Shown piece by piece: positions 3,870 to 61,088 of a DNA stretch of 62,537 bases (its first letter is position 1; each line of letters starts with the position of its first letter). The translations under genes were made by a program, and so were the position numbers. Location: the NCBI GenBank assembly GCA_019136545.1, contig JAGVUA010000152.1, positions 1-62,537 on the forward strand, given 5' to 3'. This DNA comes from Betaproteobacteria bacterium. GTDB lineage: Bacteria; Pseudomonadota; Gammaproteobacteria; Burkholderiales; Rhodocyclaceae. The notes under the pieces are model-generated. The model was not told the DNA's origin, did no database searches, and saw only the letters and a list, made by a program, of their open reading frames with translations.

Positions 3870-4898
3870 ATGACCACGCCGACGTCCGACCCGCTGTTGC
3901 CCTTGCTGGCCGCTGCCTTTGCCGCCCGCGCCGATCTACTGGCAGACCTCCACGCCGAGCATACCGACGCCTATCGCCTGTTCCACGGCACCGTCGAGGG
4001 GCGGTCCGGCCTGACGGTCGACCGCTACGGCGATCTGCTGCTGGTGCAGAGCTTCCACCAGCCGCTGGCGCAGGAAGCCCTGGCCACGCTGGAGGGCTAC
4101 TACGCCGGCGTGCTGCCGGGGCTGACTTTGATCTACAACGATCGCAGCCGCGCCCACTCGCGCATCCTCAATGAGCTGCCGCCCGAGCGGCTCGCCGCCG
4201 CAACGCTGCCGCGCGAAGCGCATGAAATGGGCATCCGCTACCGCCTTCAGGCGCGCCACGAGGGCCAGGACCCCTGGCTGTTTCTCGACCTGCGCGCCGG
4301 CCGGCGCTACGTGATGCGGCACGCGCGCGACAAGTCGCTGCTCAACCTGTTCGCCTACACCTGCGGCGTCGGCATTGCCGCCGGCCGGGCCGGCGCGCGC
4401 TTCGTGATGAACGTCGATTTTTCCGAGAGCGCCCTTGCCGTCGGCCGCGCCAACGCCAAACTGAACGACTTGCCGTTCCGGCCGCGCTTCGTCAAGAGCG
4501 ACGCCTTCGCGGCGCTGCGCCAGCTGGCCGGCATCGGCCAGCCCGAGCGGGTGCGCGGCAAGCGCATGCCGCCGTTTCCCAAGCTCGACGCACAGATGTT
4601 CGACATGGTGTTCCTCGATCCGCCGCGCTACGCCAAAAGCCCGTTCGGCGTCGTCGACCTGGTCAACGACTATGCGGCGCTGTTCAAGCCGGCGCTGCTG
4701 TGCACCGCCGAGGGCGGCACGCTGATCTGCTGCAACAACGTCGCCGAGGTCGATCGCGACGCCTGGCTCGACCAGCTCCAGCGCAGCGCGCGCAAGGCCG
4801 GGCGCGCGATCCGCGATGTCGCGTGGATTCTCCCCGAGGCCGACTTTCCCAGCCCCGACGGCAGACCGCCGCTGAAGATGGCGGCGCTGGCGGTGTAG
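3870..4898 (+). CDS. class I SAM-dependent rRNA methyltransferase (RlmI/RlmK-like)
   Basis: 342 residues with SAM motif I NLFAYTCGVGIAA near residue 160 and motif IV DMVFLDPPRYAKS near 245, the signature of the RlmI/RlmL-type 23S rRNA base methyltransferases. The N-terminal PUA domain of E. coli RlmI is not evident, so the exact target base is uncertain. The stop codon abuts the start of the FAD dehydrogenase gene with no gap, implying one transcript. A copy of the GGCTGACTTT word lies inside it, coding for Leu-Thr-Leu with the uncommon codons ACT and TTG. Confidence 0.8.
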   Translation: MTTPTSDPLLPLLAAAFAARADLLADLHAEHTDAYRLFHGTVEGRSGLTVDRYGDLLLVQSFHQPLAQEALATLEGYYAGVLPGLTLIYNDRSRAHSRILNELPPERLAAATLPREAHEMGIRYRLQARHEGQDPWLFLDLRAGRRYVMRHARDKSLLNLFAYTCGVGIAAGRAGARFVMNVDFSESALAVGRANAKLNDLPFRPRFVKSDAFAALRQLAGIGQPERVRGKRMPPFPKLDAQMFDMVFLDPPRYAKSPFGVVDLVNDYAALFKPALLCTAEGGTLICCNNVAEVDRDAWLDQLQRSARKAGRAIRDVAWILPEADFPSPDGRPPLKMAALAV

Positions 4899-6539
4899 AT
4901 GCTGCGCCTCACCGACCTCAAGCTGCCGCTCGATCACGGCGACACGGACCTCAAGGCGGCCATCCTCACGCGGCTCGGCATCGCGCCGGCCGACCTCGTC
5001 GGCTACACGATCTTCCGGCGCGGCTACGATGCGCGCAAGCAATCGAACATCCATTTCATCTACACCGTCGACGTCGAACTCCGCCAAGCGTCGGCCGTGG
5101 CGGCACGCCTGCGCGACGATCTCCGCGTGCGGCCGACGCCCGACATGGCCTACCGCTACGTCGCGCAGGCACCGGCGGGATTCGCGAACCGCCCGGTAGT
5201 GATCGGCGCCGGCCCCTGCGGCCTGTTCGCGACGCTGATCCTGGCGCGGATGGGCTTCCGGCCGATCCTGCTCGAACGCGGCAAGGAAGTGCGCGAGCGG
5301 ACCCAGGACACCTGGGGCCTGTGGCGGCAGGGCAAGCTCGATCCCGAATCGAACGTGCAGTTCGGCGAGGGCGGCGCCGGCACGTTTTCCGACGGCAAGC
5401 TGCACAGCCAGATCAAGGACCCCGGCTTCCGGGGCCGCAAGGTGCTGGAGGAGTTCGTCGCCGCCGACGCGCCGCCCGAGATCCTCTACGTCAGCAAGCC
5501 GCACATCGGCACTTTCCGGCTGGTGCGCGTGGTCGAGAACCTGCGCGCGACGATCGAACGGCTGGGCGGCGCGATCCGCTTCCAGAGCCGCGTTGCGGAC
5601 TTGGCTATCGAACGCGACGCGACCGGCACGGGACAGGTGCGCGGCGTGGTGCTGGCCAGCGGCGAACGCATCGCCGCCGATCACGTGGTGCTGGCCATCG
5701 GCCACAGCGCGCGCGACACCTTCCGGCTGCTCCACGAGCGCGGCGTGCATCTCGAAGCCAAGCCGTTTTCCATCGGCGTGCGCGCCGAACATCCGCAGGC
5801 GCTGATCGACCGCGCCCGCCTCGGTGCCGCTGCCGGCCACCCGCTGCTCGGCGCGGCCGACTACAAGCTCGTGCACCACTGCGGCAACGGCCGCTCGGTG
5901 TACAGCTTCTGCATGTGCCCGGGCGGGCAGGTGGTGGCGGCGGCCTCGGAGCTCGGCGGCGTGGTGACCAACGGCATGAGCCAGTACTCGCGCGCCGAGC
6001 GCAACGCCAATGCGGCGCTGGTGGTCGACGTGTCGCCCGCGGATTTTCCGGGTGGCGCGGCGAACAACCCGCTGGCCGGCATCGCGTTCCAGCGCCGCTG
6101 GGAAGAAGCCGCGTTCAAGGCCGGGGGCGAAAGCTACGCAGCGCCGGCGCAGAAGATCGGCGATTTCCTCGCCGGCCGGCCATCGACCGAACTCGGCGCG
6201 GTGCGGCCGTCGTACACGCCGGGCATCCACCTCACCGATCTCGCCGCCTGCCTGCCGGACTACGTCGTCGCGGCGCTGCGCGAGGCCATTCCCGCCTTCG
6301 ACAAGCAGATCCACGGTTTTGCGATGGCCGACGCGCTGCTGACCGGCGTCGAGACGCGCACGTCCTCGCCCGTGCGCATCACGCGCGACCAGCAGCTGGA
6401 AAGCGTCAATACCCGCGGCCTCTATCCGGGCGGCGAGGGCGCTGGCTATGCTGGTGGCATTCTCTCGGCAGCCGTCGACGGCATCCGGCTGGCCGAAGCC
6501 GTGGCGCTCGACCTGACGTCGCGCCCGCCGCCGGCGTGA
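4899..6539 (+). CDS. NAD(P)/FAD-dependent dehydrogenase (COG2509 type)
   Basis: 546 residues. After a roughly 95-residue N-terminal domain comes the dinucleotide-binding motif VVIGAGPCGLFA (about residue 100), then ERGKEVRERT and the family-specific block FGEGGAGTFSDGKL. The C-terminus has the FAD-contacting GLYPGGEGAGYAGGI. This is the large FAD-dependent dehydrogenase family annotated COG2509; the substrate is unknown. The gene starts on the base after the methyltransferase stop and is convergent with the MOSC gene, with no spacer between the two stops. Confidence 0.85.
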   Translation: MLRLTDLKLPLDHGDTDLKAAILTRLGIAPADLVGYTIFRRGYDARKQSNIHFIYTVDVELRQASAVAARLRDDLRVRPTPDMAYRYVAQAPAGFANRPVVIGAGPCGLFATLILARMGFRPILLERGKEVRERTQDTWGLWRQGKLDPESNVQFGEGGAGTFSDGKLHSQIKDPGFRGRKVLEEFVAADAPPEILYVSKPHIGTFRLVRVVENLRATIERLGGAIRFQSRVADLAIERDATGTGQVRGVVLASGERIAADHVVLAIGHSARDTFRLLHERGVHLEAKPFSIGVRAEHPQALIDRARLGAAAGHPLLGAADYKLVHHCGNGRSVYSFCMCPGGQVVAAASELGGVVTNGMSQYSRAERNANAALVVDVSPADFPGGAANNPLAGIAFQRRWEEAAFKAGGESYAAPAQKIGDFLAGRPSTELGAVRPSYTPGIHLTDLAACLPDYVVAALREAIPAFDKQIHGFAMADALLTGVETRTSSPVRITRDQQLESVNTRGLYPGGEGAGYAGGILSAAVDGIRLAEAVALDLTSRPPPA

Positions 6540-8346: not shown

Positions 8347-9134
8347 GGGACGACGTCGACTTGCAGCGCCAGCGGCGCCAGGTATTCGAGGGCGACGCCG
8401 CCCGCCCGGCCGCGGGCCAGCAGGTCGAGCAGCGGCAGCGCGCGCAGGGCGGGGATGTCGGTGCGCCGTTGCTCCAGCGCGGCGTCGGTCATGGCGGAAA
8501 CCGGCGTGTCGCCAAGGCTGACTTTCACCGCGGCCAGCGAACGGGCGCCGCGCGCCGGCGCCAGCAGCAGCGCGACGCCGCCGGCATCGGGCACCGGCCG
8601 CTTGGCGAAGATCGGCTCGGGATACTCGGCGTCGTAGGAGATGAGCAGGATGGGCGCGTCGGCGGTCGCCATTTGCGTCATCGCCTCCAGCAGGCCGGCG
8701 GCGAAGCTGGCGTCGTAGGCGCACAGCACCTGGCTCGGCGCCATGGCGCCGGTGGCGATGCCCCAGTAGCCGGCGGCGGCGTTGTGCACCGAATTGTGGA
8801 AGCGCGTCGGCGACACGGCGCGGTCGTCGGAGGCCAGCGTCTCGCAGAGCGCGTGGCAGTTGTGGCCGTCGCCCGACGACGAGGTGAATACCGTCGCCAG
8901 CGTGGATGCGTCGGCCCCGGCCTGCGCCACCGCTTCCAGCCCGACGCCCAGCGCGGCCTTGACCAGCCGGCTGGCGCGCCGGCGCTCGGCCGGCGGCAGC
9001 ACCGCCGGCGGCGCCAGTTCCGTCGGCGCGCTCCGGTAGGACGCCTGTCCCGCCAGCACGGCGGCGGCCGCCGGCCAGCCGGTGATGCCGGGCGCGAGGA
9101 AGCCGATTCCGTCGATCCAGGCGGTCGGCATCAT
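8340..9134 (-). CDS. ketosynthase-like chain length factor (ApeC type)
   Basis: 264 residues, shorter than an active ketosynthase and lacking its Cys-containing nucleophile elbow; the equivalent region reads CAYDASFAAGLLEAM. FHNSVHNAAAGYWGIA and YDAEYPEP are typical of the ketoacyl-synthase-like N-terminal family (PF13723) found in aryl polyene clusters. There it pairs with a ketosynthase and sets chain length. It begins 58 bases after vapC and overlaps the dehydratase. A GGCTGACTTT word lies inside it, read on the opposite strand as Lys-Val-Ser. Confidence 0.8.
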   Translation of the reverse strand: MMPTAWIDGIGFLAPGITGWPAAAAVLAGQASYRSAPTELAPPAVLPPAERRRASRLVKAALGVGLEAVAQAGADASTLATVFTSSSGDGHNCHALCETLASDDRAVSPTRFHNSVHNAAAGYWGIATGAMAPSQVLCAYDASFAAGLLEAMTQMATADAPILLISYDAEYPEPIFAKRPVPDAGGVALLLAPARGARSLAAVKVSLGDTPVSAMTDAALEQRRTDIPALRALPLLDLLARGRAGGVALEYLAPLALQVDVVPC

Positions 9135-12262: not shown

Positions 12263-12288
12263 TGTCGCCAAAGTCAGCCGTGGCGACA
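12263..12288. repeat. second stem-loop with the GCTGACTTT word in its loop
   Basis: TGTCGCCA (12263-12270) pairs with TGGCGACA (12281-12288) around a 10-base loop AAGTCAGCCG. The loop and last stem base contain AAAGTCAGC, the reverse complement of the recurrent word. A further direct copy of GTCGCCA lies at 12253-12259. It lies between convergent stops and is the only copy of the word outside a gene. Confidence 0.55.
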
Positions 12289-12312
12289 CGCCGGTCCGAG
12301 ACGGCGGTCCGC

Positions 12313-13670: not shown

Positions 13671-16051
13671 CAGCGCGCCTTGCCGCCGGCCAGCATGGCC
13701 GACAAGATCAGCGCCAGCACGGCGCCGGGGCCGACGGTGACGCCGATGGCGTGCAGCACCGGCACGGTCGAGGTGGCCAGCGCGCCGAAGCCGATCACCG
13801 TGGTGGCATTGGCAACGGCCAGCGACGCCAGCGTGCGCGGCGCGATCGCGCCGGCGGCGCGGCTGTCCTTGTCGAAGAACAGCGCGTAGTTGGAACCGAC
13901 CGCGACCGTGAGCAGCAGGCCGACCAGATGCAGCAGCGTCATGCGCTCGCCGGCCAGCACCAGGCCGGCCATGACCAGCAGCACGGCGATCACCAGCGGC
14001 GCCATGACGCGCAGCATGCGACGCACCGAATGCAGCGAGACGGCCAGCAGCGCGGCGATGGCGGCAAAACCGGCCAGCGACAGCGCGATCGCCTCGTCGA
14101 GGTATTCGGCATACAGCCGGTTCGCTTCGCGGCCGACGTCGAGAAATATCGCCCCCGGCTCATCGCTCAATGCGGCGCGCACCCGGGCGGCATCGATCTC
14201 GCCCCCCGCCGGCGCGCGCAGCGGCAAGAGCGCCGACCAGCCGGACGGCGCGCCGGCGCGCTTGAGCAGCATCGCCTCCACCGCCAGCGCGAGCGTGCTG
14301 CCCTTGAAGGCGTCGGCGTCCAGCCACGGCTGACTTTCGACGCTTCTGGCGGTGTCGACGTCGTCGAGGAAGGGCGCCAGCTTCTCGGCGCGCAGCGGCA
14401 GGTCCGCCGTCGCCGCGCGCAGGCGGCGCGCCAGCTCCTCGCGGTCGGGCAGCGCGGCGCGCCTCGCCTGCTGGGTGGCGCGGCTGGGCAGGAAGCGCGT
14501 CGGCGTGTCGAAGCCGGCGAGGACGCCCTGGTCGACCAGGGTCTGCAGCCGCCCGGCGACGCGCTCGGCGGCGGCCAGGGCCGCTTCGCGGCCGGGCGCG
14601 CTGACGACGACCAGATAGCCCTGGCCCGGCGCGCCCAGTTCGCCGCGCAAGGATTCGTCGAGCGCCAGCAGCGCCGGCGACACCGGACTCAGTTCCGCCA
14701 GCCGCAAGTTCCAGAGACGGTCGCGCTGGGCGACGAGGGTCGCCACCGCCAGCACCGCCAGCCCCAGCGCCAGCCAGCGCCACCGGCCCAGTCCGCCCAG
14801 CAGCGGCGCCACCGCGCGGCCGATGGCCGCGGTATCCGGCAGGCGAAAGCCGGCCGGACGCAGCGCCGGCAGCACGAAGCGCGTCGTGGCGGCGGCGACC
14901 AGCAGCCCCGACATCGAGTAAAGACCGAGTTGCGCCAGGCCGGCAAAACCCGAGAAGAGCAGGGAGGCGAAACCGACCAGCGAGGTCAGCACGCCGAGGC
15001 GAATGGTCGGCCAGAAACGCTCGCGCCAATCGCCCTCATTGCCATCGCTACCCTCGCTGCCCTGGCCGCCATGCCGCGATTGCACGAAGTAATAGATGCT
15101 GTAGTCGACGGCCTCGCCGATCAGCGTGGTGCCGAAGCCGATGGTCAGGCCGTGCACGTGGCCGAAGCCGAGGCTGACGGCGGCGATGCCGGCCAGCGCG
15201 CCCGACACCACGGGCAGCAGTCCGAGCGCCAGCGCCGGCCATGAGCGAAACACGAGCATCAGCACCGCGACGATGCCGATGCCGCTGACCATGGCCAGGC
15301 GCTCGACTTCGCTGCGGATGGTGCGGCGGGCATCCACCGAGAACACCGGCGTGCCCGAGACCAGCAGGCGAATTTCCGCCGCTTGCGGCAGTTGCGCGCG
15401 CGCCTCGGCAAAAGCGGCCTGCAGCCACGCCAGCGCCTGCTCCTGACCGTCGGTGTCGGCGCCGGAGGCGACGGTCTGCGCCATCAGCAGCGCGGTCCGG
15501 CCGTCGCGCGACATCCAGACACCGTGCACGCTGGCCGGGCCGCGGTCGGCGCCCAGGGCGCCGAGCAGTTCCATCGTTTCGCCGGTGGGATCGCGCGGCA
15601 GCAGGCGCTTGATCATCAGGCCGGCCGGCGAGGCGAGCAGCTCGATGCTGTCGCCGATGGCCTGGCGCAGCCCGTCGACGCTGAAGCGTTCCGCCGTCAC
15701 TGCCGGGCTCAACAGATAGCGGTGGGCGAACAGCAGGTCGCGATCCTTCGCCAGCGCCGCCGCATCGCCATTCTGCACGCCGGCGAATTCGGGGCTGGCC
15801 GCCAGCCGCCCGGCGAGCTGTTTCGACAATTCGGCGCGGGCGGCCGGCGCGCCGCCTTCGAGGCCGATCAGCAACAGGCGCGACAGCGCGCCTTCGCGCA
15901 GCTGCTCGACGAGCAGTTGCTGGGTCGCCGAGGGGCGTTGCGGCATGAAGGCCGACATGTCGGCGGTGAAGCGCGTCGGCGCGATGACGACGATGCAGGC
16001 GGCCAGGCCCAGCAGCCAGGCTATGACGGCACGGCGATCGGATCGGGTCAC
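13670..16051 (-). CDS. MMPL/RND-family lipid exporter (ApeM-like)
   Basis: 793 residues starting at GTG 16051, which overlaps the LolA-like stop (GTGA). Layout is typical of RND exporters: an N-terminal membrane helix (about 9-27), a large periplasmic loop, a block of helices with IGFGTTLIGEAVDYSIYY, a second loop and a final block with AVGSNYALFFDKDS. It would move the finished lipid or polyene across the inner membrane. It is the standard exporter of aryl polyene and xanthomonadin clusters, working with the LolA-like protein. A GGCTGACTTT word is read in reverse as Glu-Ser-Gln-Pro. Confidence 0.85.
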   Translation of the reverse strand: MTRSDRRAVIAWLLGLAACIVVIAPTRFTADMSAFMPQRPSATQQLLVEQLREGALSRLLLIGLEGGAPAARAELSKQLAGRLAASPEFAGVQNGDAAALAKDRDLLFAHRYLLSPAVTAERFSVDGLRQAIGDSIELLASPAGLMIKRLLPRDPTGETMELLGALGADRGPASVHGVWMSRDGRTALLMAQTVASGADTDGQEQALAWLQAAFAEARAQLPQAAEIRLLVSGTPVFSVDARRTIRSEVERLAMVSGIGIVAVLMLVFRSWPALALGLLPVVSGALAGIAAVSLGFGHVHGLTIGFGTTLIGEAVDYSIYYFVQSRHGGQGSEGSDGNEGDWRERFWPTIRLGVLTSLVGFASLLFSGFAGLAQLGLYSMSGLLVAAATTRFVLPALRPAGFRLPDTAAIGRAVAPLLGGLGRWRWLALGLAVLAVATLVAQRDRLWNLRLAELSPVSPALLALDESLRGELGAPGQGYLVVVSAPGREAALAAAERVAGRLQTLVDQGVLAGFDTPTRFLPSRATQQARRAALPDREELARRLRAATADLPLRAEKLAPFLDDVDTARSVESQPWLDADAFKGSTLALAVEAMLLKRAGAPSGWSALLPLRAPAGGEIDAARVRAALSDEPGAIFLDVGREANRLYAEYLDEAIALSLAGFAAIAALLAVSLHSVRRMLRVMAPLVIAVLLVMAGLVLAGERMTLLHLVGLLLTVAVGSNYALFFDKDSRAAGAIAPRTLASLAVANATTVIGFGALATSTVPVLHAIGVTVGPGAVLALILSAMLAGGKAR

Positions 16052-16614
16052 TCGGCCGCCACCGGTTCGACGGTCATGGTCGAACTGTCGCCGTCGGCCT
16101 GCAGGTAGCGGATCCATTCCACCTGGTTCTTCGAACCGCCGAAGGTGATGCGCAGCACGAAGGCGGCGATGCGCGGGTCGCTGGGCAGGAGGTCGAGCGT
16201 CCAGCGCTGTTCGTCGCCGTCCAGGCGCAGCTTGTAACTTTTCTCCAGCGTCGCCCGGTCGCCGGACAGCGTGCCGCGCAGGCTGTCCACGAAAGCGAGC
16301 GCCCCCGGCTGCTCTGCGAGGCGGACTTGGAACTTCTGCTTGCCGCGCTCGAACAGCAGCGTGTCGCCGTCGACCACCATCAGTTCCGGCTTGGGCTTGA
16401 GCGTGCGCTTTTCGAGGCGCGCCGGCGGCTGATAGCGCAGCTCGCCGGAAGAAACCACCGGCTTGTCGAGCAAGGCGATGTTCTTGGTTTCGACGAAGCG
16501 CGCCCGGCCGCCTTCGTGCCGGGCGAGGCTCTGCATCAGCGCGTCGATGTCCCAGGCGGCCTGCACCGGCAGCGCGACGAAAGTCAGCCATGGCAGCACG
16601 CCGAGTTTCCTCAT
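16048..16614 (-). CDS. LolA-like outer membrane lipid carrier
   Basis: 188 residues with a short signal peptide (ending VALPVQAAW) and a LolA-fold sequence: ARFVETKNIALLDKPVVSSGEL, RLEKRTLKPKPELMVVDG and QRWTLDLLPSDPRIAAFVLRI patterns. In aryl polyene clusters this protein is thought to ferry the product through the periplasm. It is coupled by 4-base overlaps to the acyltransferase and the MMPL gene. A GGCTGACTTT word encodes Leu-Thr-Phe within its signal peptide. Confidence 0.82.
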   Translation of the reverse strand: MRKLGVLPWLTFVALPVQAAWDIDALMQSLARHEGGRARFVETKNIALLDKPVVSSGELRYQPPARLEKRTLKPKPELMVVDGDTLLFERGKQKFQVRLAEQPGALAFVDSLRGTLSGDRATLEKSYKLRLDGDEQRWTLDLLPSDPRIAAFVLRITFGGSKNQVEWIRYLQADGDSSTMTVEPVAAE

Positions 16615-17525
16615 GACGGCCGCCAGAAGTCGAAGAAGTTGAACCAGTTGTCCGGCGCCGCGCGGCAGTGCCGCTCGAGACGGTCGACGTAGGCGCGCTG
16701 CGCCTCGGCGATGGCGGCGTCGCGCTGGCCGCGCTCGACCGTCGAGAAGTCCGCCAGCGGCTCGAAGTGGATGCGGTAGCGGTTGCCGCCCAGATAGAGG
16801 CCGGTCATGAACAGCACCGGCCGGCGCAGCAGGGCGGCGACGCGAAAAGGTCCGAGCGGGAAGCGCGCCGGCGCGCCGAGAAAATTCATTTCGCGCACGG
16901 GATCGCTACCCGCTTTCTGGTCGATCGCGCGATCGGCGAGCATGCCGACCAGGTGGCCGGCCTCGAGCCTGTCCCGGGCCGTCAGCATGGCGTCCACGCG
17001 GCCGAGCGGAATGATGTCCTGCACGGCGGCCGGGTTGATGGCGGCGAGCGCGGCGTTGATCTTGCGGGCGTTCTCTTCGTACATCAGCATGCTGATGCCG
17101 CGCCCCGTCCGCTGGCGACCGAGTGCGCGCATGACCTCGAAGCTGCCCAGGTGCGCGCCCATCAGCAGCACTCCTTGACCGCCCGCCATCGCCGCATCGA
17201 TGACGTCCTGCCCGACGATGTCGATGTCGAACAGGTCGAAGCGGTCGTTGAGCAGATACACGCGGTCGTGGACGGTGCTGGCGAAGGCCAGCAGGTGCCG
17301 GTAGCGTTCCGCGAGCGTCGGCGGGCGGCCGAGCACGCGCGCCAGATAGTCGCCGCTGGCGCGCCGCGCGCGCGGTGCGAAGGCGAGGAAGTAAGCGGTG
17401 GCGCCGCGCAGCACGAGCCGGCCGGCCGGCCGGCCGAGACGCAGCGAAAACCACGCCATCAGGCGCAGGGCGGGCAGGTTGCTGCGTTCCGGCCGCTGGG
17501 TCCAGTCGACGGCTTCCGCGTTCAT
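16611..17525 (-). CDS. LpxL-like lysophospholipid acyltransferase
   Basis: 304 residues with the acyltransferase motif H-x4-E at His125/Glu130 (GAHLGSFEVMR), then MLADRAID and NFLGAPARFP, typical of the LpxL/HtrB-like family. It would transfer the acyl or polyene chain from ACP to a membrane acceptor. ATG 17525 overlaps the dehydratase stop by 4 bases, and the stop overlaps the next start by 4 bases. Standard member of aryl polyene clusters. Confidence 0.85.
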   Translation of the reverse strand: MNAEAVDWTQRPERSNLPALRLMAWFSLRLGRPAGRLVLRGATAYFLAFAPRARRASGDYLARVLGRPPTLAERYRHLLAFASTVHDRVYLLNDRFDLFDIDIVGQDVIDAAMAGGQGVLLMGAHLGSFEVMRALGRQRTGRGISMLMYEENARKINAALAAINPAAVQDIIPLGRVDAMLTARDRLEAGHLVGMLADRAIDQKAGSDPVREMNFLGAPARFPLGPFRVAALLRRPVLFMTGLYLGGNRYRIHFEPLADFSTVERGQRDAAIAEAQRAYVDRLERHCRAAPDNWFNFFDFWRPS

Positions 17526-17794: not shown

Positions 17795-19146
17795 GATGCG
17801 TCCTTGGCGTGCCGGTCCAGCAGCGCCGCCAGCGTGGCGCGCGGCAGTTTTCCCGTGGCGTTGCGCGGCAGGCGCGGCAGGAACACCAGCGGCCGGGGCA
17901 GGAAGATCGGATCGAGGCGGCCGCGCAGGGCATCGAGCAACTGGCGCGGCGTCAGGGTCGGCGCGACGACGAAGGCGGCAAGGCGCGTGACGCTTTCGTC
18001 GCTGCCGTCGTCGGGCATGAAGAAGCAGCCGTCCTCGACGCCGGCGACGGCGCCGAGCTGGTGGTTCAGGTAGGCCAGCGAGGTGCGTTTGCCGGCGATG
18101 TTGATCACGTCGGCATGGCGGCCGTGGAGCAGGAAAGTGCCATCGTCGCCGAGTTCGATGACGTCGCCGAGCCGCTGTCGCCCCTCGACATGGCCGCCGC
18201 AAGCGAAGGTGATGCCGTCCTGCTGATCGAACCCGATGTCCTGCAGCAGTGTCCAGCGCGACGTGAGGCTGGTGCGGCGGCTGGCGAGCTGGCCGGCTTC
18301 CGTGCAGCCGTAGATCTCGACCAGCGTGCCGCCGAGCCTGGCTTCCGCGGCGCGCGCCAGCTCCGCGGAAAGCGGCGCCGTGGCCGACAGCATCATGTCG
18401 GTGGCCGGCACGTCGATCTGCGAATCGAGCAGCGCGCGCAAGTGAAAGGGCGTGCTGACCAGCAGCCGGGGCCGGGGCACGGCGGCCAGCGCGTCGGCGA
18501 TGTCGGCCGGATAGAAAGGCCGGCCGTGCCAGAGCGCGCAGCCCCCGTGCAGGGTCAACAGGATGGTCGATTCGAACCCGTAACTATGCTGCGCCGGCAC
18601 GGTGCCGACGATCGTGAACGACGGGCTGCGCTCGTCCAGGAAACCCAGCCGCGCGGCGCCCGCCCGCCCGTTGCTGACCAGCGCGCCCCAGGTCTTGGCC
18701 TGCGCCACCGGCAATCCCGTCGAGCCCGAGGTGAACAGGATGACGGCGACCCGGTCCGTCTCGATGCCGGGCACGGCAACGGCATCGGCATCTGCGACCG
18801 CCGGCATTTCCGGGTAGCGCAGCTGGGGCAGCTCGGCGAGCGCGCCCTTGCCGTCGTGCAGGCAGAAAAGGCCGGGGTAGGATGCCTGGAGCTGCCGGAG
18901 GGTCTCCACCGACTGCGAAGCGGGCAACAGGCTGATCTTGCCGGCGACCAGCGCCGCCGACCATCCGACCATGAAGCGGTAGCGGTCCTCGCAGGTGTTG
19001 AGCAGATAGTCGCCCGCCGGCAACGATCGGGCCAGCATCTCGACCTCGGCCAGGAACTGGTTGCGCGTGACGGCGCCCGCGGCTCGCCAGGCAAGGACGT
19101 CGTCCGGCCTGGCATGCGAGGTCAGCGCGATTCGGCGCGGTTTCAC
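17791..19146 (-). CDS. acyl/aryl-AMP ligase (ApeH-like)
   Basis: 451 residues of the adenylate-forming family: core motif FTSGSTGLP (residues 138-146), EIYGCTEAG and the C-terminal LPRNATGKLPR with the catalytic Lys. It should activate the starter acid and load it on an ACP. In aryl polyene clusters the starter is 4-hydroxybenzoate or a relative, but no starter-making gene (chorismate lyase or ammonia lyase) is visible here, so the acid is unknown. Overlaps the neighbouring genes by 4 bases on both sides. Confidence 0.85.
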   Translation of the reverse strand: MKPRRIALTSHARPDDVLAWRAAGAVTRNQFLAEVEMLARSLPAGDYLLNTCEDRYRFMVGWSAALVAGKISLLPASQSVETLRQLQASYPGLFCLHDGKGALAELPQLRYPEMPAVADADAVAVPGIETDRVAVILFTSGSTGLPVAQAKTWGALVSNGRAGAARLGFLDERSPSFTIVGTVPAQHSYGFESTILLTLHGGCALWHGRPFYPADIADALAAVPRPRLLVSTPFHLRALLDSQIDVPATDMMLSATAPLSAELARAAEARLGGTLVEIYGCTEAGQLASRRTSLTSRWTLLQDIGFDQQDGITFACGGHVEGRQRLGDVIELGDDGTFLLHGRHADVINIAGKRTSLAYLNHQLGAVAGVEDGCFFMPDDGSDESVTRLAAFVVAPTLTPRQLLDALRGRLDPIFLPRPLVFLPRLPRNATGKLPRATLAALLDRHAKDAS

Positions 19147-19972: not shown

Positions 19973-22459
<2,487 letters not shown>

Positions 22460-22469
22460 CTATGTGGGA

Positions 22470-38051: not shown

Positions 38052-38936
38052 ATGAATCCCCCGAAGATGAAAGGGCTCGGTCGCGGGCTCGACGCGCTGC
38101 TCGCCGCCAACAACGGCGTCGAAGTCAGCCGTCAGGAGACGCTGCCGGTCGGCGCCTTGCAGCCCGGCAAGTACCAGCCGCGCACGCGCATGGATCCGGG
38201 CTCGCTCGAGGAGCTGGCCGCCTCGATCAAGGCGCAGGGCCTGATCCAGCCGATCTCGGTGCGTCCGGTGGCCGAAGCGGGCGCTGCGCCGCGCTATGAA
38301 ATCATCGCCGGCGAACGGCGCTGGCGTGCCTCGCAGATTGCCGGTCTCGCCGAAGTGCCGGTGCTGATCCGCGACATTCCGGACGATGCCGTGCTGGCGA
38401 TGTCCTTGATCGAGAACATTCAACGCGAGGATCTCAACCCGCTCGAAGAGGCCGCCGGCTTGCAGCGGCTGATCGACGAGTTCGGCATGACGCACCAGCA
38501 GGCGGCGGACGCCGTCGGCCGCTCGCGCTCCGCCGCGACCAATCTGCTTCGCCTGTTGCATCTGGCCAAGCCTGCCCAGGACATGCTGATGGCCGGCGAT
38601 ATCGAGATGGGTCACGCGCGGGCGCTGCTGGCGCTGCCCAAGACCGAGCAGGGCAGGGTGGCGAGCATCGCGGTCGACAAGGGCTGGTCGGTGCGTGAAA
38701 CGGAGCGTGCCGTCGCGCGCGAGTTGAATCCGCGTACCGAGAAGTCGACGGGCAAGCCGCCGAACCGCGACCTCGAGCGCCTGGAAGAGGAACTTGCCGA
38801 CAGTGTTGGCGCCACGGTCAAGATCGCCGCCAATCGCAAGGGTGCCGGCAGCCTGACCATCCGCTTTGCCAGCCTTGATCAACTGGACGGCCTGTTGCAG
38901 CGGCTGCAGGGAAAACAGCAACCGACAGGCCGATGA
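38052..38936 (+). CDS. parB: chromosome partitioning protein ParB
   Basis: 294 residues. N-terminal MKGLGRGLDALLA, CTP-binding motif GERRWRASQIAGL, ENIQREDLNPLEEA, helix-turn-helix MTHQQAADAVGRSRSAATNLLRL and a C-terminal dimer domain. A CTP-dependent clamp that loads on the parS palindromes found upstream of mnmG. Followed by a 75-base spacer before the CBS gene. Confidence 0.97.
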   Translation: MNPPKMKGLGRGLDALLAANNGVEVSRQETLPVGALQPGKYQPRTRMDPGSLEELAASIKAQGLIQPISVRPVAEAGAAPRYEIIAGERRWRASQIAGLAEVPVLIRDIPDDAVLAMSLIENIQREDLNPLEEAAGLQRLIDEFGMTHQQAADAVGRSRSAATNLLRLLHLAKPAQDMLMAGDIEMGHARALLALPKTEQGRVASIAVDKGWSVRETERAVARELNPRTEKSTGKPPNRDLERLEEELADSVGATVKIAANRKGAGSLTIRFASLDQLDGLLQRLQGKQQPTGR

Positions 38937-43878: not shown

Positions 43879-44775
43879 ATGCCTAGCGGCAAAGAGATTC
43901 GGACCAAGATCGCTTCGTTCCAGAACACGAAGAAGATCACCAAGGCCATGGAGATGGTGGCTGCGTCGAAAATGCGCAAGGCGCAGGATCGCATGCGCGC
44001 CGCGCGGCCGTATTCCGAGAAGATTCGCCGCCTGGCGGCCAATCTCTCGGCGGCGACGCTTTCCGACTACCGCCATCCTTTCTTGGCGAAAAGTCAGCCG
44101 TCGCAGGACGCCGCCGGCAAGGCCAAGCGCATCGGCCTGATTCTGGTGACCACCGACAAGGGGTTGTGCGGCGGCCTCAATACCAACATCCTGCGCTTGG
44201 TGCTCAACACCATGCGCGACTGGGAAGCTGCCGGCGCCGCCCAGGTTCGCGTCACCGCCATCGGCAACAAGGGGCTCGGCTTCATGCAGCGGCTGGGCGC
44301 CAAGGTCGTGTCCGAGGCCACACACCTGGGCGACACGCCCCATCTGGAAAAGTTGATCGGTCCCGTCAAGATCATGATCGACGCCGTCCAAAACGGCGAG
44401 CTGGATGTCGTTTACATCGCCTATACCCGCTTCATCAACACCATGAAGCAGGAGCCGGTGGTCGAGCAACTGCTGCCGCTGACCGGCGAGCGCCTGGGCA
44501 CGCCGGAAGGCCACTGGGACTACCTCTACGAGCCCGAGGCGCGCGTCGTCGTCGATGAGCTGCTGGTACGCTACGTCGAGGCGCTGATCTATCAGGCGGT
44601 GGCGGAGAACATGGCCTCCGAGCAGTCGGCGCGCATGGTGGCGATGAAATCGGCGACCGACAATGCCGGCAACGTCATCAAGGAACTCCAGCTGGTCTAC
44701 AACAAGGCCCGCCAGGCTTCGATCACCAAGGAAATTTCTGAAATCGTCGGCGGCGCCGCCGCTATCGCAGGCTAA
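43879..44775 (+). CDS. atpG: ATP synthase F1 subunit gamma
   Basis: 298 residues with N-terminal [25 protein letters not shown] and C-terminal [26 protein letters not shown], the two coiled-coil helices of the rotor shaft. Between them, [12 protein letters not shown] is conserved. A GCTGACTTT copy is read in reverse as Lys-Ser-Gln-Pro in a variable loop. Confidence 0.97.
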
Positions 44776-46715: not shown

Positions 46716-47648
46716 TCAATGGCGAGTGGATGTGCTTTCCGGGGGCGTAACGGCGGGCGGCAGGTTCACCACGCCTTCGACCTCGTTGCCGCAACCCCGG
46801 TACTCCAGCTTGTCGAAACTGAGCAGCTTGGACATGGCAATGCCGCGTCCATGGGTGTCGAAGGCGCGCTCCGGGATCATCTCCAGGTATTGTTGCCAGT
46901 CGAATCCTTTGCCCTGGTCGCGGATGATGAAGCGCAACTCGCCCGCATTCCTGACGAACTCGACAGTCGCAATCCTGCGGGCAAAGTCAGGATCGACGAG
47001 GCGCCGGTCGATTTCCTCGGCCAGCGCTTCGCCGCCGCCGAGCTGAGTCTTTTCGTCGTAGGTAATGCCCAGATTGCCGTGTTCGATGGCATTCAACATC
47101 AATTCGGAAAGTCCGAGCACCACGCGGCCGGGATCGGGCGCCGCCTGTGCGAGCAGCGTCGCGACGTCGCGCGCCTCGTCAGTGGTGCGAAAACCGAATG
47201 CCGCCGAGTCCAGGCAGGCCATGCTGCGCGACGCCTGCCGGACTTCGCGTTGCAGGTCGAGATAGTCCTGGTGGTCGCGAATCGCCGCGCCAACGATGGC
47301 TATCAGCGTTTCCGCGGCGAAGGGCTTGACCAGATAGTAGTAAGCCCCCGCTTTCAAACCCTCCGCGACCGCTTCGCTGCCGGACATGGAGGTTTGCATG
47401 ATCACGGGCAGGTGGGCCATCTCGCGGCGGTCCTTCATGCGGCGCAGGATTTCGATGCCGTCCATGTCGGGCAGCATGCGGTCGAGCAGCACGACGTCGA
47501 AACTTTTGGGCGACTCGGCCAGCAACCGCCAGGCATCGGCGCCGTTGCCGGCGCTGTGAATCTCGTAGCCTTCCTCGCCGAGAATGTCGGTCAACACCAT
47601 CAGGCCGACCGGCTCGTCTTCGGCGATGAGAATTCGGGCAGCACTCAT
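46716..47648 (-). CDS. response regulator with HATPase (anti-sigma-type) output domain
   Basis: 310 residues. A REC domain with acidic pocket Asp11, phospho-acceptor Asp56 (VVLLDRMLP) and Lys108 (LVKPF). The C-terminal half has the GHKL N-box ELMLNAIEHGN and the G-box-like IRDQGKGFD and HGRGIAM motifs of RsbW/SpoIIAB-type serine kinases. It probably controls an anti-sigma or phosphatase partner-switching step rather than DNA. No cognate sensor kinase lies beside it; the next gene, 32 bases upstream in the same direction, encodes a heme protein that could supply a signal. Confidence 0.85.
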   Translation of the reverse strand: MSAARILIAEDEPVGLMVLTDILGEEGYEIHSAGNGADAWRLLAESPKSFDVVLLDRMLPDMDGIEILRRMKDRREMAHLPVIMQTSMSGSEAVAEGLKAGAYYYLVKPFAAETLIAIVGAAIRDHQDYLDLQREVRQASRSMACLDSAAFGFRTTDEARDVATLLAQAAPDPGRVVLGLSELMLNAIEHGNLGITYDEKTQLGGGEALAEEIDRRLVDPDFARRIATVEFVRNAGELRFIIRDQGKGFDWQQYLEMIPERAFDTHGRGIAMSKLLSFDKLEYRGCGNEVEGVVNLPPAVTPPESTSTRH

Positions 47649-48294: not shown

Positions 48295-48891
48295 TTACCT
48301 CAGCGCACCGACACGAGCCTCGAGTAGTTCGACACGACGGCTGAATTCTGCCAGTTCTGCGCGAAAAGTGCTCAGGTCTCGCGCGCGAACCAGCAGATCC
48401 GCTTCCTCGCCCAGATATTCGGCCACATTCTCGGCAAAATCGCGCGCCGCCTGCTTCTGCCACAAAGTCAGCCGTGCCGACACGCCGACCATGCGATGGG
48501 CTGCGATGTCGCCGACCAGCTTCGACAAGTCTTCCTCGGCATCCCAGCGCAGGTTCTTGAGCACGAAGGACAGGGCGGTGGCGAACTCGGCGTTGCCGGT
48601 GACATGAGCGGCCGCCATGGCGCGATCCATGCCCTGCAGCGCGACCAGCGGCGTGCCGGCCGGCAGGACGACCGTCACGTCAACCGCCTGGTCGTCGGCC
48701 GGCGCGAGCCGGCCCTGTTCGTCGACGCGAAATGCCAGCTTCCAGGGCGGCATCTCGAAGCGGGCGCGACGGCCGGCGAACCCGCTCAATTGCCGACGCG
48801 CCCATGCCGCCTGCTCAAGCAGGTGATTGAGCGCGCCGAGAATCAGACCCTCGAGCACACCCGGATCATTGAATCTGCTGGATACCGGCAA
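48295..48891 (-). CDS. ubiJ: ubiquinone biosynthesis accessory factor UbiJ (SCP2 domain)
   Basis: 198 residues with an N-terminal SCP2 lipid-binding domain (LILGALNHLLEQ, ALQGMDRAMAAAHVTGNAEFA) and a C-terminal coiled coil (EFSRRVELLEARVGALR), the UbiJ layout. It helps assemble the coenzyme Q enzyme complex. The start is unclear: TTG 48891 overlaps the Tim44 gene by 26 bases, while GTG 48858 avoids the overlap but loses 11 residues. A GGCTGACTTT copy encodes Leu-Thr-Leu. Confidence 0.82.
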   Translation of the reverse strand: MPVSSRFNDPGVLEGLILGALNHLLEQAAWARRQLSGFAGRRARFEMPPWKLAFRVDEQGRLAPADDQAVDVTVVLPAGTPLVALQGMDRAMAAAHVTGNAEFATALSFVLKNLRWDAEEDLSKLVGDIAAHRMVGVSARLTLWQKQAARDFAENVAEYLGEEADLLVRARDLSTFRAELAEFSRRVELLEARVGALR

Positions 48892-54218: not shown

Positions 54219-54664
54219 GCGCCGCCGGACTCCTCGGCCAGCGCGGCGGCGATCGCGACGCGCAGCGCCGGCGTGGCGGGCGCGGATCGGCGGGGCGCCA
54301 CGGCTGACTTTCGTTCAGGATCGGCGCCGGCCCAGATCGGCGCCGGAAAGCGGCTGTCGTCGCGCCAGCGCGGGATGACGTGCCAATGGAGATGCGGGAC
54401 CATGTTGCCCAGCGCGGCGAGATTGATCTTGTCGGGTGCGGCGAGCGCACGCAACGCCGTTTCGACCGCGAAGACGACGTTCATGGCATGACGGCGATCG
54501 GCGAGGTCGAGGTCGGTCATTTCGGCGACATGGCCGCGCCAGACGACGCGGCAAAAACCGGGAAACGCTTCGCCTTCGGGACCGCCGACGCGAATCACGC
54601 GGCACAGGCCATCTTCCCAAACGATTTCGCCGCCGGCGGACGAGCAAAACGGGCACGCATCCAT
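54215..54664 (-). CDS. HIT-family nucleotide-binding protein
   Basis: 149 residues with the histidine triad HLHWHVIPR (His91, 93, 95), an N-terminal CPFC that may bind zinc and GFCRVVWRGHVAEMTDL. HIT proteins hydrolyse nucleotide conjugates such as adenosine phosphoramidates or ApnA. It is translationally coupled to the paralogue pair. A GGCTGACTTT copy is read in reverse as Lys-Ser-Ala in the variable C-terminal part. Confidence 0.88.
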   Translation of the reverse strand: MDACPFCSSAGGEIVWEDGLCRVIRVGGPEGEAFPGFCRVVWRGHVAEMTDLDLADRRHAMNVVFAVETALRALAAPDKINLAALGNMVPHLHWHVIPRWRDDSRFPAPIWAGADPERKSAVAPRRSAPATPALRVAIAAALAEESGGA

Positions 54665-55927: not shown

Positions 55928-58900
55928 CTACAGCAGTACCCGCTCGATGCCTCCGGCGTTGGCGGCGGCGATGTATTGCCCTTGCCAGTCCTTGCCGAGC
56001 AGGTGGTTGGCCATCTCGACCACGATGTACTCGGCTTCGACATTGACGTCTTCGCGGTAGCGGTGCAGGCCCTGCAGGCAGGACGGGCAGCTGGTCAGAA
56101 TCTTCGGCGTTTCATCGCGGCTGACTTTCAGTGCCGCGAGACCCGCCTCGATCTCCTGCTGCTTGCGGAAGCGCACCTGCGTCGAGACGTCGGGGCGTTT
56201 GATGCCCTTCTCCATGAGGTACTCGTGGATGTCGAGCAGCCGGCAGCCGGGGAAGATCCTGTCGAACTGGTACTTTTCGAGCTGGTCGAGGCAGGTGCCG
56301 CACGACACCAGCACGGTCTTGATGTCGAGATAGTTGAGCGTGTTGGCGACGCGGTGGAACAGCACGCGGTTCTGCATGGTGATCGCCTGGCCCCTGTCCT
56401 CGTTGCCGTTCGCGGTCTGCGGGTAGCCGCAGCACAAATACCCCGGCGGCAGCACCGTGGTGGCGCCGACATGCCAGAGCATCGCCTGCGTGGCCAGCCC
56501 CACCTGCGAGAACAGACGCTCCGAGCCGCAGCCGGGGAAGTAGAACACCGCACCGCTTTCGTCGCCGGGCTCGGCCGCCCGCTTCGGGTCGCGGATCACC
56601 GGGATCAGCGTGCCGTCCTCGATGTCGAGCAGCGCGCGCGACGTACGGCTCGGCATGCCGGGCGGCATCGGCTTGTTGAGCAGGTGGATCACCTGCGTCT
56701 TGACGGGCGGCTTGCCGAGCGTTGCCGCCGGATTGCGCGTGCTGTCCTGGATCAGTCCCAAGGATTTGGCAAGCCGGTGGCCGAAGCGCTGGGCGCGGTA
56801 GCCCAGCCCGATCATGCCGGCGCGCAGCGCCTTGATGGCCCGGGGGTCGCGCGCGTTGAGGAAGGCCATGGCCGCCGCGGTGCCGAGGCTGACTTTCTTC
56901 TTGCCATGGCGGCGCAGGAAGTTGCGCATGGCGATCGAGACGTCGCCGAAGTCGATGTCCACCGGGCAGGGCTTGACGCAGCGATGGCAGATCGTGCAAT
57001 GGTCGCCGATGTCGGCGAATTCGTCGAAGTGCTGCAGGCTGACGCCGCGCCGCGTCTGCTCCTCGTAGAGGAAGGCCTCGATCAGCAGGCCGGTGCCGAG
57101 GATCTTGTTGCGCGGGCTGTAGAGCAGGTTGGCGCGCGGCACGTGCGTCGAGCAGACCGGCTTGCACTTGCCGCAGCGCAGGCAGTCCTTGACCATGGCC
57201 GAGATCGAGCCGATCTCCGATTGCTCCATGATCAGCGATTCGATGCCGAGCAGCGCGAACGAGGGCGTGTAGGCGTTGCGCAAGTCCGCCGCGGTCTCCG
57301 GCAGGTCCATGAGCTTGCCCTTGTTGAAGCGGCCTTCCGGGTCGACCCTGCGCTTGTACTCGCGGAACGGCCGAATCTCGGCATCGGTCAGGAACTCCAG
57401 CTTGGTGATGCCGATGCCGTGCTCGCCCGAGATGACGCCGCCGAGGTCGCGCGCCAGGTGCATGATGCGCTCGACCGCCTGGTAGGCGGTTTGCAGCATC
57501 TCGTAGCGGTCCGAGTTCACCGGAATGTTGGTGTGCACGTTGCCGTCGCCGGCGTGCATGTGCAGGGCGACGAAGAGCCGGCCGCGCAGCACGTCGGCGT
57601 GGATGGCGTCGATGCGCTCGAGCACCGGCCGGTAGACGTTGCCGTCGAAGATCGCCTCCAGCAACGGCTTGAGTTCCGCCTTCCACGACACGCGCACCGA
57701 ATGGTCCTGGAGCTTGTGGAAGACGCTGGCGGCCAGCGGGTGCCAGGTCTTCACCGGCACCGGGCGGCGCGGCCGCGGCCGCGGATGCCAATAGGGGCGT
57801 GTGCGCGGCCACGCCTCGGGTTCCGGCGGCGGCCAGGCGCCGTCGAGGTTGTCGAGCAGGGACTGCCAGCGCGACCGCACTTCGGCGACTGCCGCCAGCG
57901 CCTGGTCGCGGCGGTCGCCGATCAGCTCCTCTTTGTCGAGGCTGGCGTCGCCGAGGTGGAGCGGCATCTGGTTAACCGGGCCGGCGAGGAATTCGTGCAG
58001 CGCGTCGCAGAGTTCGATCTTGTTGGCGATCGACAGCTCGATATTGATGCGCTCGATGCCGTCGCAGTAGTCGCCCATGCGCGGCAGCGGAATCACCACG
58101 TCCTCGTTGATCTTGAAGGCGTTGGTGTGCTTCGAGATCGCGGCGGTGCGGGCGCGGTCGAGCCAGAATTTCTTGCGCGCTTCGGCGCTGACGGCGATGA
58201 AGCCTTCGCCCGAACGCGAGTTGGCGATGCGGACGACCTGGGACGTCGCCGCCATGACGGCGCGCTCGTCCTCGCCGACGATATCGCCGACCAGCACCAT
58301 CTTCGGCCGGCCATGCCTTTTTGCTTTCGTCGCGTAGCCGACCGCCTTGATGTAACGCTCGTCGAGGTGTTCGAGGCCCGCCAGGATGGCGCCGCCGGGT
58401 TTGGCCTTCAAGTAATCGGTGATCTCGACGATGGCCGGCACGGCATCCGCGACCCGCCCGAAGAACTCCAGGCAGAAGGTGCGCGCCACCGGCGGCATCC
58501 GGTGCAGGAGCCAGACTGCCGAAGTGATGATGCCGTCGCAACCTTCCTTCTGCACGCCCGGCAGGCCGGCGAGGAATTTGTCGGTGACGTCCTTGCCCAG
58601 CCCGGCCTTGCGGAAGGTTGCGCCGGGAATGGCAAGGAACTCCTCGCCGAGCTGGCGGCCCGCGTCGTCGAGCTTTTTCACGCGGAAGGTGGCCGTTTCC
58701 TGATCGTGGATCTTGCCCAGGTTGTGGCCGATGCGCTCGACCTCCAGCCAGTTGCCGTCAGGCGTCACCATCGTCCACGAGGCGAGGTTGTCGAGCGCCG
58801 TGCCCCACAGCACGGCCTTTTTGCCGCCGGCGTTCATGGCGATGTTGCCGCCGATGCAGGAAGCGTCGGCCGAAGTCGGGTCGCAGGCGAACACCAGCCC

Positions 58901-59668: not shown

Positions 59669-59735
59669 TGGGCAGAGCGGCGACCAAAGATTGCTATTCT
59701 AGGTCATCCATTGCGGCGCAATAACCCCGATCCTC

Positions 59736-61088
59736 TTGAGCCAATCCGCTTTTCGTCGTCTCACCCGGCTTGCCTGGCCCGTCCTGGTGGCGCAGGTCTC
59801 CGTGGTCGCCAACGGCGTCATCGATACCATGATGGCCGGCCGCCTGTCGGCGGTCGACCTCGCCGCCGTCGGCATCGGCGCGGCGATCTACATCACCGTC
59901 TTCGTCACCGCCATGGGCGTGCTGCTGGCGTTGGCGCCGATGGTCGCCCAACATTTCGGCGCCGGTCGCCATGGCGAAATCGGCGAGGACGTCCGCCAGT
60001 CGGCCTGGCTGGCGCTGGCGCTGGCGGCGCTCGGCATCGTTCTGCTGCGCAACCCCGAGCCTTTCGTGGCGCTGTCGCGCATGACGCCGGAGGTCGAAGC
60101 GCGGGTGCGCGCCTATCTCAATGCCGTCTCCTGGGGCATGGCGCCCGGCATGATGTTTCGCATCTTCTACGGCTTCATGACCGGCATCGGCCGGCCGCGT
60201 GCCATCATGGCCTTCAATCTGATCGGCCTCGCCTTCAAGGTGCCGCTCAATACCTTGTTCATGTTCTCGCTCGGCATGGGCGCCGCCGGCTGCGCCGCCG
60301 CGACCGCGACCATTTCCTGGGGTACGGCGATCCTCGCCTGGTCGTGGTGCGCGCGCCAGCCCGATTGCGCGGAATTCGGCGTCTTCTCGCGGCTGACTTT
60401 GCCCAAGCCGGGCCCCATCCTGGCGCTCGTCAAGCTGGGGCTGCCGATTGGCGTGACCATGCTGGTCGACGTCACCGCGTTCACTTTCATGGCGCTGTTC
60501 ATTGCCCGCCTGGGCTCGGTCTATTCGGCCGCGCACCAGATCGCCTCCAATCTGACCGTGCTGACCTTCATGATTCCGCTCTCGATCGGCCATGCGGCGC
60601 TGGTGCTGGTCGGCCACGCCATGGGTGCCGGCCAGCCGGCCGAGGCCCGGCGCGCGGCACTGGTCGGATTGGCGGTCGGCATGGCGGTCGCCGCGCTGGT
60701 CAGCCTCGGGCTCGGATTCGGCGCGGAGCGACTGGCGGCGGCCTACACGCCAGACCCCCAAGTGCGGGCCGTCGCAACGGGCCTGATCGGCATCGTTGCC
60801 TTCTATCACCTCGTCGACGCGTTGCAGGCGGTGGTGGTCAACGTACTGCGCGGCTACAAGAAAACCACCGTGCCGATGCTGGTCTATGCCTTCTCGCTGT
60901 GGGGCGTCGGCCTTGCCGGCGGTTATCTGCTCGGCCTCACCGACTTCCTCGGCCCGGCGCGCGGCGCCGCCGGTTTCTGGATTGCCGCCACGCTCAGCGT
61001 GCTGCTGGCGGGGGGGGTGGTGCTGGCCTACTTCCTGCGGATTTCCCGGCAATATGCCGTGCTGGTACTATTAGCACGGCTAACCTAG
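59736..61088 (+). CDS. MATE-family multidrug/cation efflux protein
   Basis: 450 residues with about 12 membrane helices and MATE signatures: the opening LAWPVLVAQVSVVANGVIDTMMAGRLS and YSAAHQIASNLTVLTFMIPLSIGHAALVLVGHAMGAG. It exchanges Na+ or H+ for drugs or metabolites. The start is TTG 59736; no ATG precedes the conserved block. Divergent from the giant oxidoreductase. It is the last GC-rich gene before the composition drops. A GGCTGACTTT copy encodes Leu-Thr-Leu. Confidence 0.88.
   Translation: MSQSAFRRLTRLAWPVLVAQVSVVANGVIDTMMAGRLSAVDLAAVGIGAAIYITVFVTAMGVLLALAPMVAQHFGAGRHGEIGEDVRQSAWLALALAALGIVLLRNPEPFVALSRMTPEVEARVRAYLNAVSWGMAPGMMFRIFYGFMTGIGRPRAIMAFNLIGLAFKVPLNTLFMFSLGMGAAGCAAATATISWGTAILAWSWCARQPDCAEFGVFSRLTLPKPGPILALVKLGLPIGVTMLVDVTAFTFMALFIARLGSVYSAAHQIASNLTVLTFMIPLSIGHAALVLVGHAMGAGQPAEARRAALVGLAVGMAVAALVSLGLGFGAERLAAAYTPDPQVRAVATGLIGIVAFYHLVDALQAVVVNVLRGYKKTTVPMLVYAFSLWGVGLAGGYLLGLTDFLGPARGAAGFWIAATLSVLLAGGVVLAYFLRISRQYAVLVLLARLT

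Follow-up and report, generated by a model that had tools for sequence, protein, structure and literature searches.

The 62,537-nucleotide contig JAGVUA010000152.1 of a bacterium of the family Rhodocyclaceae (assembly GCA_019136545.1), hereafter called the window, was found in the present study to be rich in a motif of about 25 bp that is dispersed over the genome, arises by substitution, is kept at shared positions in congeners, and is spelled in at least four dialects within one bacterial family. Judging from its copy number, placement, and distribution, the motif is quite probably a DNA uptake signal, which would have evolved convergently with the DNA uptake sequence (DUS) of Neisseriaceae and the uptake signal sequence (USS) of Pasteurellaceae.

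Results

The original prediction, made from the letters of the window, was that a word of 9–10 bases occurs in sixteen copies where about 0.2 are expected. All 16 exact copies of GCTGACTTT were indeed located at the reported places, from 4121 to 60400, while 100 dinucleotide shuffles of the window gave a mean of 0.21 and a largest value of 2, and GGCTGACTTT, with 15 copies, is the top-ranked 10-mer of the window. The 3.40-Mb window genome (G000; 3,404,842 bases in 162 contigs, 94.8% complete, the window being contig C31) contains 313 copies of GGCTGACTTT, 156 in forward and 157 in reverse orientation, as compared with 6 copies of the backwards word used as a control, and a count near the random expectation was thus not seen. 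The window is denser than the genome mean, with 15 copies of GGCTGACTTT where the genome-wide rate (313 per 3.40 Mb) would give ∼5.7; the window was, however, chosen for its richness, and it also contains the replication origin. The signal itself is real beyond doubt.

Lining up 45 copies revealed a second conserved block directly upstream of the word. The full motif spans ∼25 bp, with the consensus CGGCGTGYCGCCACGGCTGACTTTC in the window species, and the GCTGACTTT/GGCTGACTTT word forms its right half. The firm blocks of the consensus are CGGCGT, CGCCA, and CTGACTTT, giving ∼28 bits in total with little conservation past ∼26 bp, and the motif contains the partial dyad GGCG-N3-CGCC. No flanking homology was found outside the motif among the 45 aligned copies. 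A motif matrix was refined on 436,323 bases, comprising the window and 20 further stretches, and the threshold for a site was set at 13 bits; conservation along this matrix is graded rather than copy-like. The 436-kb sample holds 114 sites above the threshold, while the reversed-sequence control holds 1, and 92 of the sites exceed 22 bits, whereas none of the controls exceeds 16 bits. The resulting density of 2.6 sites per 10 kb extrapolates to ∼890 per genome. The window has 24 sites above 13 bits, of which 21 exceed 20 bits. The left arm is present in 15 of the 16 reported copies of GCTGACTTT, all 15 scoring above 13 bits, and is missing at 20826 on the minus strand. The enrichment claimed for the word therefore stands, but the length of the motif exceeds twice that of the word, and the motif comes in dialects and was found enriched in one family only.

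Conservation of the sites was examined in genomes of the same genus. The region 26000–38500 of the window is collinear in congeners G001 and G002 (78% and 77% identity, respectively), and four of its seven sites exist at the same positions in both without gaps, while three are absent or degenerate. One of the three unkept sites has a 3-base gap at its edge; the other orthologues differ by base changes. Sites arise by substitution, not by insertion. For the comparison over all aligned stretches, alignments were required to have an identity of 68% or more and a length of 400 bases or more. The core CTGACTTT is identical in 4/5 aligned copies in G001, 6/9 in G002, and 7/9 in G004, which makes 17/23 in total, a count of own-site and species pairs in which one site may appear for several species and which are therefore not independent. 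The background retention of all other 8-mers in these three carriers is 0.178–0.183, and anagrams of the core were retained in 41/241 (G001), 82/509 (G002), and 74/353 (G004) cases, 197/1,103 in total. In this comparison of orthologues, of the kind proposed with the original prediction, the core is thus conserved well above the level of other 8-mers. Retention of whole sites, a measure that counts gapped sites as lost and lowers the figure for G004 most, was 4/7 in G001, 8/14 in G002, 2/12 in G004, 0/7 in G005, and 1/5 in G003. Several orthologous sites score above the window species' own copy.

The signal extends to relatives of the window species. The 10-mer GGCTGACTTT is enriched in four of the six genomes of the window genus (313, 265, 278, and 180 copies; the other two have 8 and 14), and its counts in 55 other relatives searched range from 1 to 41. 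The nearest named relatives by gyrB are a Sulfuritalea metagenome-assembled genome (MAG) at 84%, a “Burkholderiaceae” MAG at 83%, and a betaproteobacterial MAG at 81%, followed by Uliginosibacterium and Rhodocyclaceae/Azonexaceae MAGs (77–80%), which suggests that the window species is betaproteobacterial with a Rhodocyclaceae-like position; PMC6397845 is of relevance here for Sulfuritalea only. The 10-mer is sparse in other relatives because the named gyrB relatives carry a different spelling. The pattern CGTNNNNNCANNGCYGACTTT, which covers both spellings (dialects 1 and 2), reaches 33 to 586 copies in 39 of the 297 genomes sampled from the family; the rest have at most 15, and the reversed control gives no more than 2. 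These 39 carriers span 7 of 68 genera (g1, 4 genomes; g2, 11; g9, 1; g20, 9; g63, 1; g71, 4; and g89, 9). Among the 29 genomes reached through named gyrB loci, those of L031, L032, and L104 contain 359, 119, and 214 copies, and the rest contain 0 to 11. At least one match was found in 112/297 family genomes and in 42/399 genomes sampled from the order; four of the latter have at least 30 copies, and all four belong to the same family, while no enrichment was found in the 386 genomes that represent the order's other families in this sample (at most 4 copies). Both samples were drawn evenly from larger groups, so further carriers may exist. The term “non-carrier” here means low counts of the tested patterns, with motif refinement tried on four such genomes, and some of the genomes scored in this way could carry a dialect that escaped the patterns. 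This status is less sure for G003, a genome of 1.4 Mb in which 8 exact words and 3 full patterns were counted.

There are at least four dialects, whose consensus sequences were obtained by motif refinement on each genome's own stretches. Dialect 1, CGGCGT..CGCCA.GGCTGACTTTC, was derived from G000, and G001, G002, and G004 look alike. Dialect 2, CGCCGTnnCGCCAGCGCCGACTTTt or a form near it, is the commonest and was found in G097, G013, G067, G175, and G108. Dialect 3, CGCCGCCcCGCCAGCGCCGAGTTT, occurs in G283 of genus g20, and dialect 4, CGCCGTg.CGCCAGCGCCAACTCT, in G279 of genus g2. The pattern CGCCAGCGCCRASTYT, which represents the right half and admits dialects 2, 3, and 4, that is, all forms but dialect 1, finds 311 copies in G279 and 167 in G283 with none in the control, whereas the dialect 1/2 pattern finds 33 and 8. 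Exact words counted in the stretches agree with this: G283 has 10 copies of the dialect 3 word and G279 has 9 of the dialect 4 word, with 0 or 1 copies elsewhere. As judged by genus code alone, the dialects are distributed clade-wise. No convincing form was detected in the sampled stretches of G265 (g2, 99% complete), G270 (g20), and G005 (g1), the latter two being 85–87% complete; these genomes have 7, 0, and 1 copies of CGTNNNNNCANNGCYGACTTT and 4, 0, and 0 copies of CGCCAGCGCCRASTYT, respectively. The refinements for G003 and G265 were blurred and were not counted as dialects, and the equally blurred G075 rests on genome-wide counts.

The top 11-letter words of G265 and G283 were also considered as extra dialects and were rejected as local repeats. 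In G283, short tandem units of the ATGTCTGGC type (L209:2389-2700), unrelated to the signal, top the word counts, and in G265 repeated TGCGCCTCT units on one small contig (L202:1081-2203) form a local repeat family.

The window includes a replication origin region (19973-37271), in which gyrB, dnaN, and dnaA (23776-25191) lie on the minus strand and yidC, mnmE, and rsmG (36672-37271) on the plus strand. Taking the origin to be beside dnaA, 14 of the 24 window sites (Table 1) are on the leading strand. In the 436-kb sample, 54 sites are on the plus and 60 on the minus strand, and no strand polarity is detectable, six contigs being alike in strand share (105 sites, heterogeneity p = 0.18). Runs of plus-strand sites that might be taken for polarity proved to be an artefact of listing order, as the DNA of G108 has an unlisted minus-strand site in between. 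According to a crude gene caller, whose genes cover 82% of the sample, 83 of the 114 sites fall within genes and 30 outside them, with 1 at a gene edge; the outside share is over-counted because the caller misses real genes such as rsmG. The 83 in-gene sites comprise 38 in sense and 45 in antisense orientation and use all reading frames, although the frame that reads TGA holds only 1 of them. The occurrence on both strands, in both orientations, and in multiple frames that was noted for the sixteen words is thus reproduced in the larger sample, and the codons that the word forces are indeed rare there, ACT accounting for 6.1% of Thr, TTG for 13.8% of Leu, and AAA for 18.9% of Lys codons. At L116:17413-17446, two overlapping, oppositely oriented sites lie outside called genes and possibly form a terminator-like pair.

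Table 1. Motif sites and related features in the window, with their scores and their state in congeners
Feature	Position	Strand	Score (bits)	Remarks
Motif site	3037..3064	+	31.9	core GACTGACTTT; missing from the original prediction
Motif site	4104..4131	+	32.5	
Weak motif-like site	5085..5112	-	18.6	
Motif site	8500..8527	+	38.1	
Motif site	12268..12295	-	38.5	best match in the window
Motif site	14312..14339	+	34.8	core also in G004 (gapped alignment)
Motif site	16578..16605	-	37.2	core also in G004 (gapped alignment)
Weak motif-like site	17386..17413	-	14.9	lost in G004
Motif site	18320..18347	+	21.3	lost in G004
Weak motif-like site	20260..20287	+	14.4	lost in G002, G004
Isolated GCTGACTTT in gyrB	20826..20834	-		without the G and the left arm; probably chance, no site
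Motif site in mnmE	27912..27939	+	34.1	retained in G001, G002; sub-threshold in G005, G003
Motif site	28958..28985	+	22.3	lost in G001, G002
Motif site	31368..31395	+	24.0	degenerate in G001 (16.4 bits); absent in G002
Motif site	32399..32426	+	30.9	retained in G001 (31.2), G002 (36.3); absent in G005
Motif site	35320..35347	+	30.8	retained in G001, G002; weak in G003 (14.0); absent in G005 (different amino acids)
Motif site in rsmG	36891..36918	+	26.5	retained in G001, G002; weakened in G004 (13.4); absent in G005
Motif site	38119..38146	-	21.1	lost in aligned relatives
Motif site	44088..44115	-	30.6	
Motif site	46981..47008	-	24.4	core CCTGACTTT; missing from the original prediction
Motif site	48462..48489	-	31.7	
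Motif site	54286..54313	+	35.0	
Motif site	56103..56130	+	32.6	
Motif site	56871..56898	+	26.4	
Motif site	60375..60402	+	27.2	

Full-strength dialect 2 sites are also clustered in genomes of low copy number. Five lie within 41 kb of a 3.66-Mb contig of G111, and further islands exist in G156, G085, G084, and in G359, which belongs to another family. The sites of G111 and G156 (L273-L276) cluster in a metal-resistance stretch. In G111 it encodes a heavy-metal sensor kinase, a metal P-type ATPase, a CusA/CzcA efflux protein, and an integrase-domain protein, and five of the nine examined frames have no family match at a strict threshold. The gene content of the G111 island is in keeping with transferred DNA, and some of the island contigs may be assembly contamination. 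The distribution of dialects has reportedly been used to locate integrative elements in Neisseriaceae.

Matches also occur in viral contigs (viral_contigs, L293-L372, L413-L417): dialect 2 was found in at least 120 stretches, mostly as single copies among the matches listed, and the dialect 1 pattern in 5. One such stretch, L314, has four copies at 316-base steps and a fifth farther along.

As for the competence genes proposed together with the word (comEA, comEC, and comP-like pilins), 33 of the 35 genomes examined, both carriers and others, have ComEC, and the exceptions are G003 and the carrier G004, which are 80–85% complete; GspH-type pilins were likewise present in 33 of 35. Nearly every match of the ComEA models TIGR00426 and HHH_3 was a single open frame of 452–1,237 codons, presumably Tex. 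Shorter frames matching these models were found in the carriers G175, G093, and, below the cut-off, G024, and in the non-carriers G010, G265, G012, and G005. The pilin ComP proved not to be carrier-specific and a short ComEA mostly went unseen. ComP_DUS, GspH-type pilins, and ComEA were each considered as receptor and were rejected as markers, as none separates carriers from non-carriers.

Discussion

The original prediction left three options for the word: a DNA uptake sequence, a recombination hotspot, or a binding site for a nucleoid or segregation protein. Uptake fits best with the copy number, the presence on both strands and in the usable frames, the origin by substitution, the shared positions, the dialects, and the patchy loss, and is the best reading because the alternatives predict family-wide conservation, polarity, regional placement, or insertion scars, all of which were tested and unseen in the sample. 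We infer the following scheme of binding, uptake, and recombination drive. A surface receptor, presumably a minor pilin of a type IV pilus, would bind free DNA bearing the motif, and import and recombination of this DNA would then favor sequences from the cell's own kind. Copies would build up by point mutation and repeated exchange of homologous segments, and would accumulate in permissive places of shared genes, in any frame free of stops. Receptor and signal might drift together, giving rise to dialects between and within genera, and lineages that lose specificity would then lose the signal.

Chi-type or segregation sites are expected to be short or polar and kept across a family, and both of the other predicted options fit poorly on this account. 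A long motif of ∼28 bits with a partial dyad might well be read by a cytoplasmic DNA protein for the nucleoid, segregation, or origin organization, protein and site co-evolving, and the ∼2.6-fold density of exact words in the origin window (15 against 5.7) would agree with this. We nevertheless consider such a site unlikely, given that the tested pattern is unenriched in 61 of the 68 sampled family genera, that no form was detected in G265, G270, and G005 despite their belonging to carrier genera, and that neither polarity nor confinement to one region was detected; a switch of spelling inside a genus, as in G279 and G283, would also be unexpected for chromosome maintenance. The same 61 genera, with at most 15 copies, speak against a Chi-type hotspot read by RecBCD or AddAB. 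Chi sites are 5–8 bp long, and a motif of ∼25 bp and ∼28 bits, non-polar with 14 of 24 window sites on the leading strand and patchy in distribution, makes such a hotspot very improbable even though its copy number would be similarly high and its sites would lie in genes.

That many similar copies exist, 30 of 114 being called outside genes, would be expected also of a mobile or amplified short repeat of the REP or MITE type spread by many insertions, and some BLAST alignments elsewhere are gapped, mostly in poorly aligned places. In the collinear region, however, motif-less orthologues can be aligned across the site, from which they differ by base changes and by a gap of no more than 3 bases, and with graded conservation and no homology beyond the motif, this explanation deserves hardly any credence for the sites examined. 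Somewhat more conceivable, but still quite improbable, is that the motif is a relic, a former uptake signal that is no longer read in the window species and still read in relatives. The lack of a visible short ComEA in G000 and a copy number below that of Neisseria would suit a relic; however, despite ∼22% divergence the core is unchanged in 17 of the 23 aligned copies, and some orthologous sites are stronger than the window species' own copy, which suggests continuing maintenance.

Several observations weigh against an uptake signal. ComP_DUS (PF16732) was detected in 45 of 46 genomes whether or not they carry the motif, and most of the strongest scores came from non-carriers; in many genomes of both groups a ComP_DUS-type pilin adjoins a GspH-type minor pilin. 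No ComEA-model match was obtained in the carriers G097, G206, and G141, and most carriers, G000 among them, showed no short ComEA. The uptake machinery thus appears plausible but incomplete on paper, no receptor candidate stands out, and the failure to find a receptor and ComEA is among the weakest points of the uptake reading. In addition, the core was retained in 0/7 copies in G005 and 0/3 in G003, which is at chance level (background 0.094 and 0.135, respectively), in aligned stretches that are small and, for G005, contain runs of N; the similarity to G005 is lower in the core columns (0.48) than in the flanks (0.71), suggesting that the carriers diverged there from a common sequence. Perfect copies in the small islands of non-carriers need no uptake. 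Close opposite pairs number only 2 among 105 sites, whereas they are frequent in DUS and USS genomes, where the signals are “often organized as inverted repeats” according to PMC12616744. The site density is also lower than that of Neisseria, for which PMC3630211 gives ∼1,900 DUS in 2.2–2.3 Mb.

With these points taken into account, it seems rather likely that self-DNA uptake signals evolved independently a third time, here as a ∼25-bp motif in betaproteobacteria of a family other than Neisseriaceae, with four or more dialects, dialect switches within genera, and a receptor other than a carrier-specific pilin of the ComP family. A 2025 article states that Neisseriaceae and Pasteurellaceae are the only families known to discriminate their own DNA in this way (PMC12616744). 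No earlier description of the present signal was found among the matches listed from openly licensed PubMed Central papers, also when “uptake sequence” was combined with Rhodocyclaceae; the letters of GGCTGACTTT gave nothing on this subject among the matches listed, and the dialect 2 word or its complement led to no relevant paper in the same collection. If the proposal is correct, the joint evolution of receptor and signal could be followed in a natural experiment, since a third origin would provide ∼40 genomes with four spellings, and the question of why such signals exist would become testable by comparing independent origins. These bacteria would also be predicted to be naturally transformable; the three named carriers are known only as MAGs.

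Judging from the consensus sequences, which show neither a GCCGTCTGAA-type sequence nor the AAGTGCGGT or ACAAGCGGT core, the motif belongs to neither DUS proper nor USS proper. It resembles the DUS in its many copies inside and between genes, its species-differing dialects, and its patchy loss. Genomes with DUS or USS contain hundreds or thousands of copies, with dialects that follow phylogeny (PMC12616744, PMC3630211), and for the DUS, PMC3630211 lists eight dialects of 10- to 12-mers with a required CTG core, along with five Neisseriaceae genomes without an obvious DUS. Unlike the DUS (GCCGTCTGAA, with its CTG core read by ComP), the present motif is ∼25 bp long, differs in sequence, and forms few inverted pairs; CTG exists in dialect 1, but dialect 2 has CCG at that place. 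The left arm of dialect 2, GCCGTC in many copies, resembles the start of GCCGTCTGAA, with which it shares GCCGT, probably by chance.

Further segments beside the USS core are A+T-rich, and the USS is gammaproteobacterial. The likeness to the USS lies in the genome-wide occurrence of a core with further conserved positions; in the present motif, however, the core is neither AAGTGCGGT nor ACAAGCGGT, and a G+C-rich second segment directly adjoins the core on its upstream side. The USS itself has AAGTGCGGT or ACAAGCGGT as its core, is discontinuous, and is of two types, with a receptor described as unproven in PMC12616744. The motif shares with Chi, KOPS, matS, and parS the property of being an over-represented or chromosome-wide word. 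Those words are short, polar, or regional, whereas the motif found in the present study is long, non-polar, dispersed, and limited to a clade.

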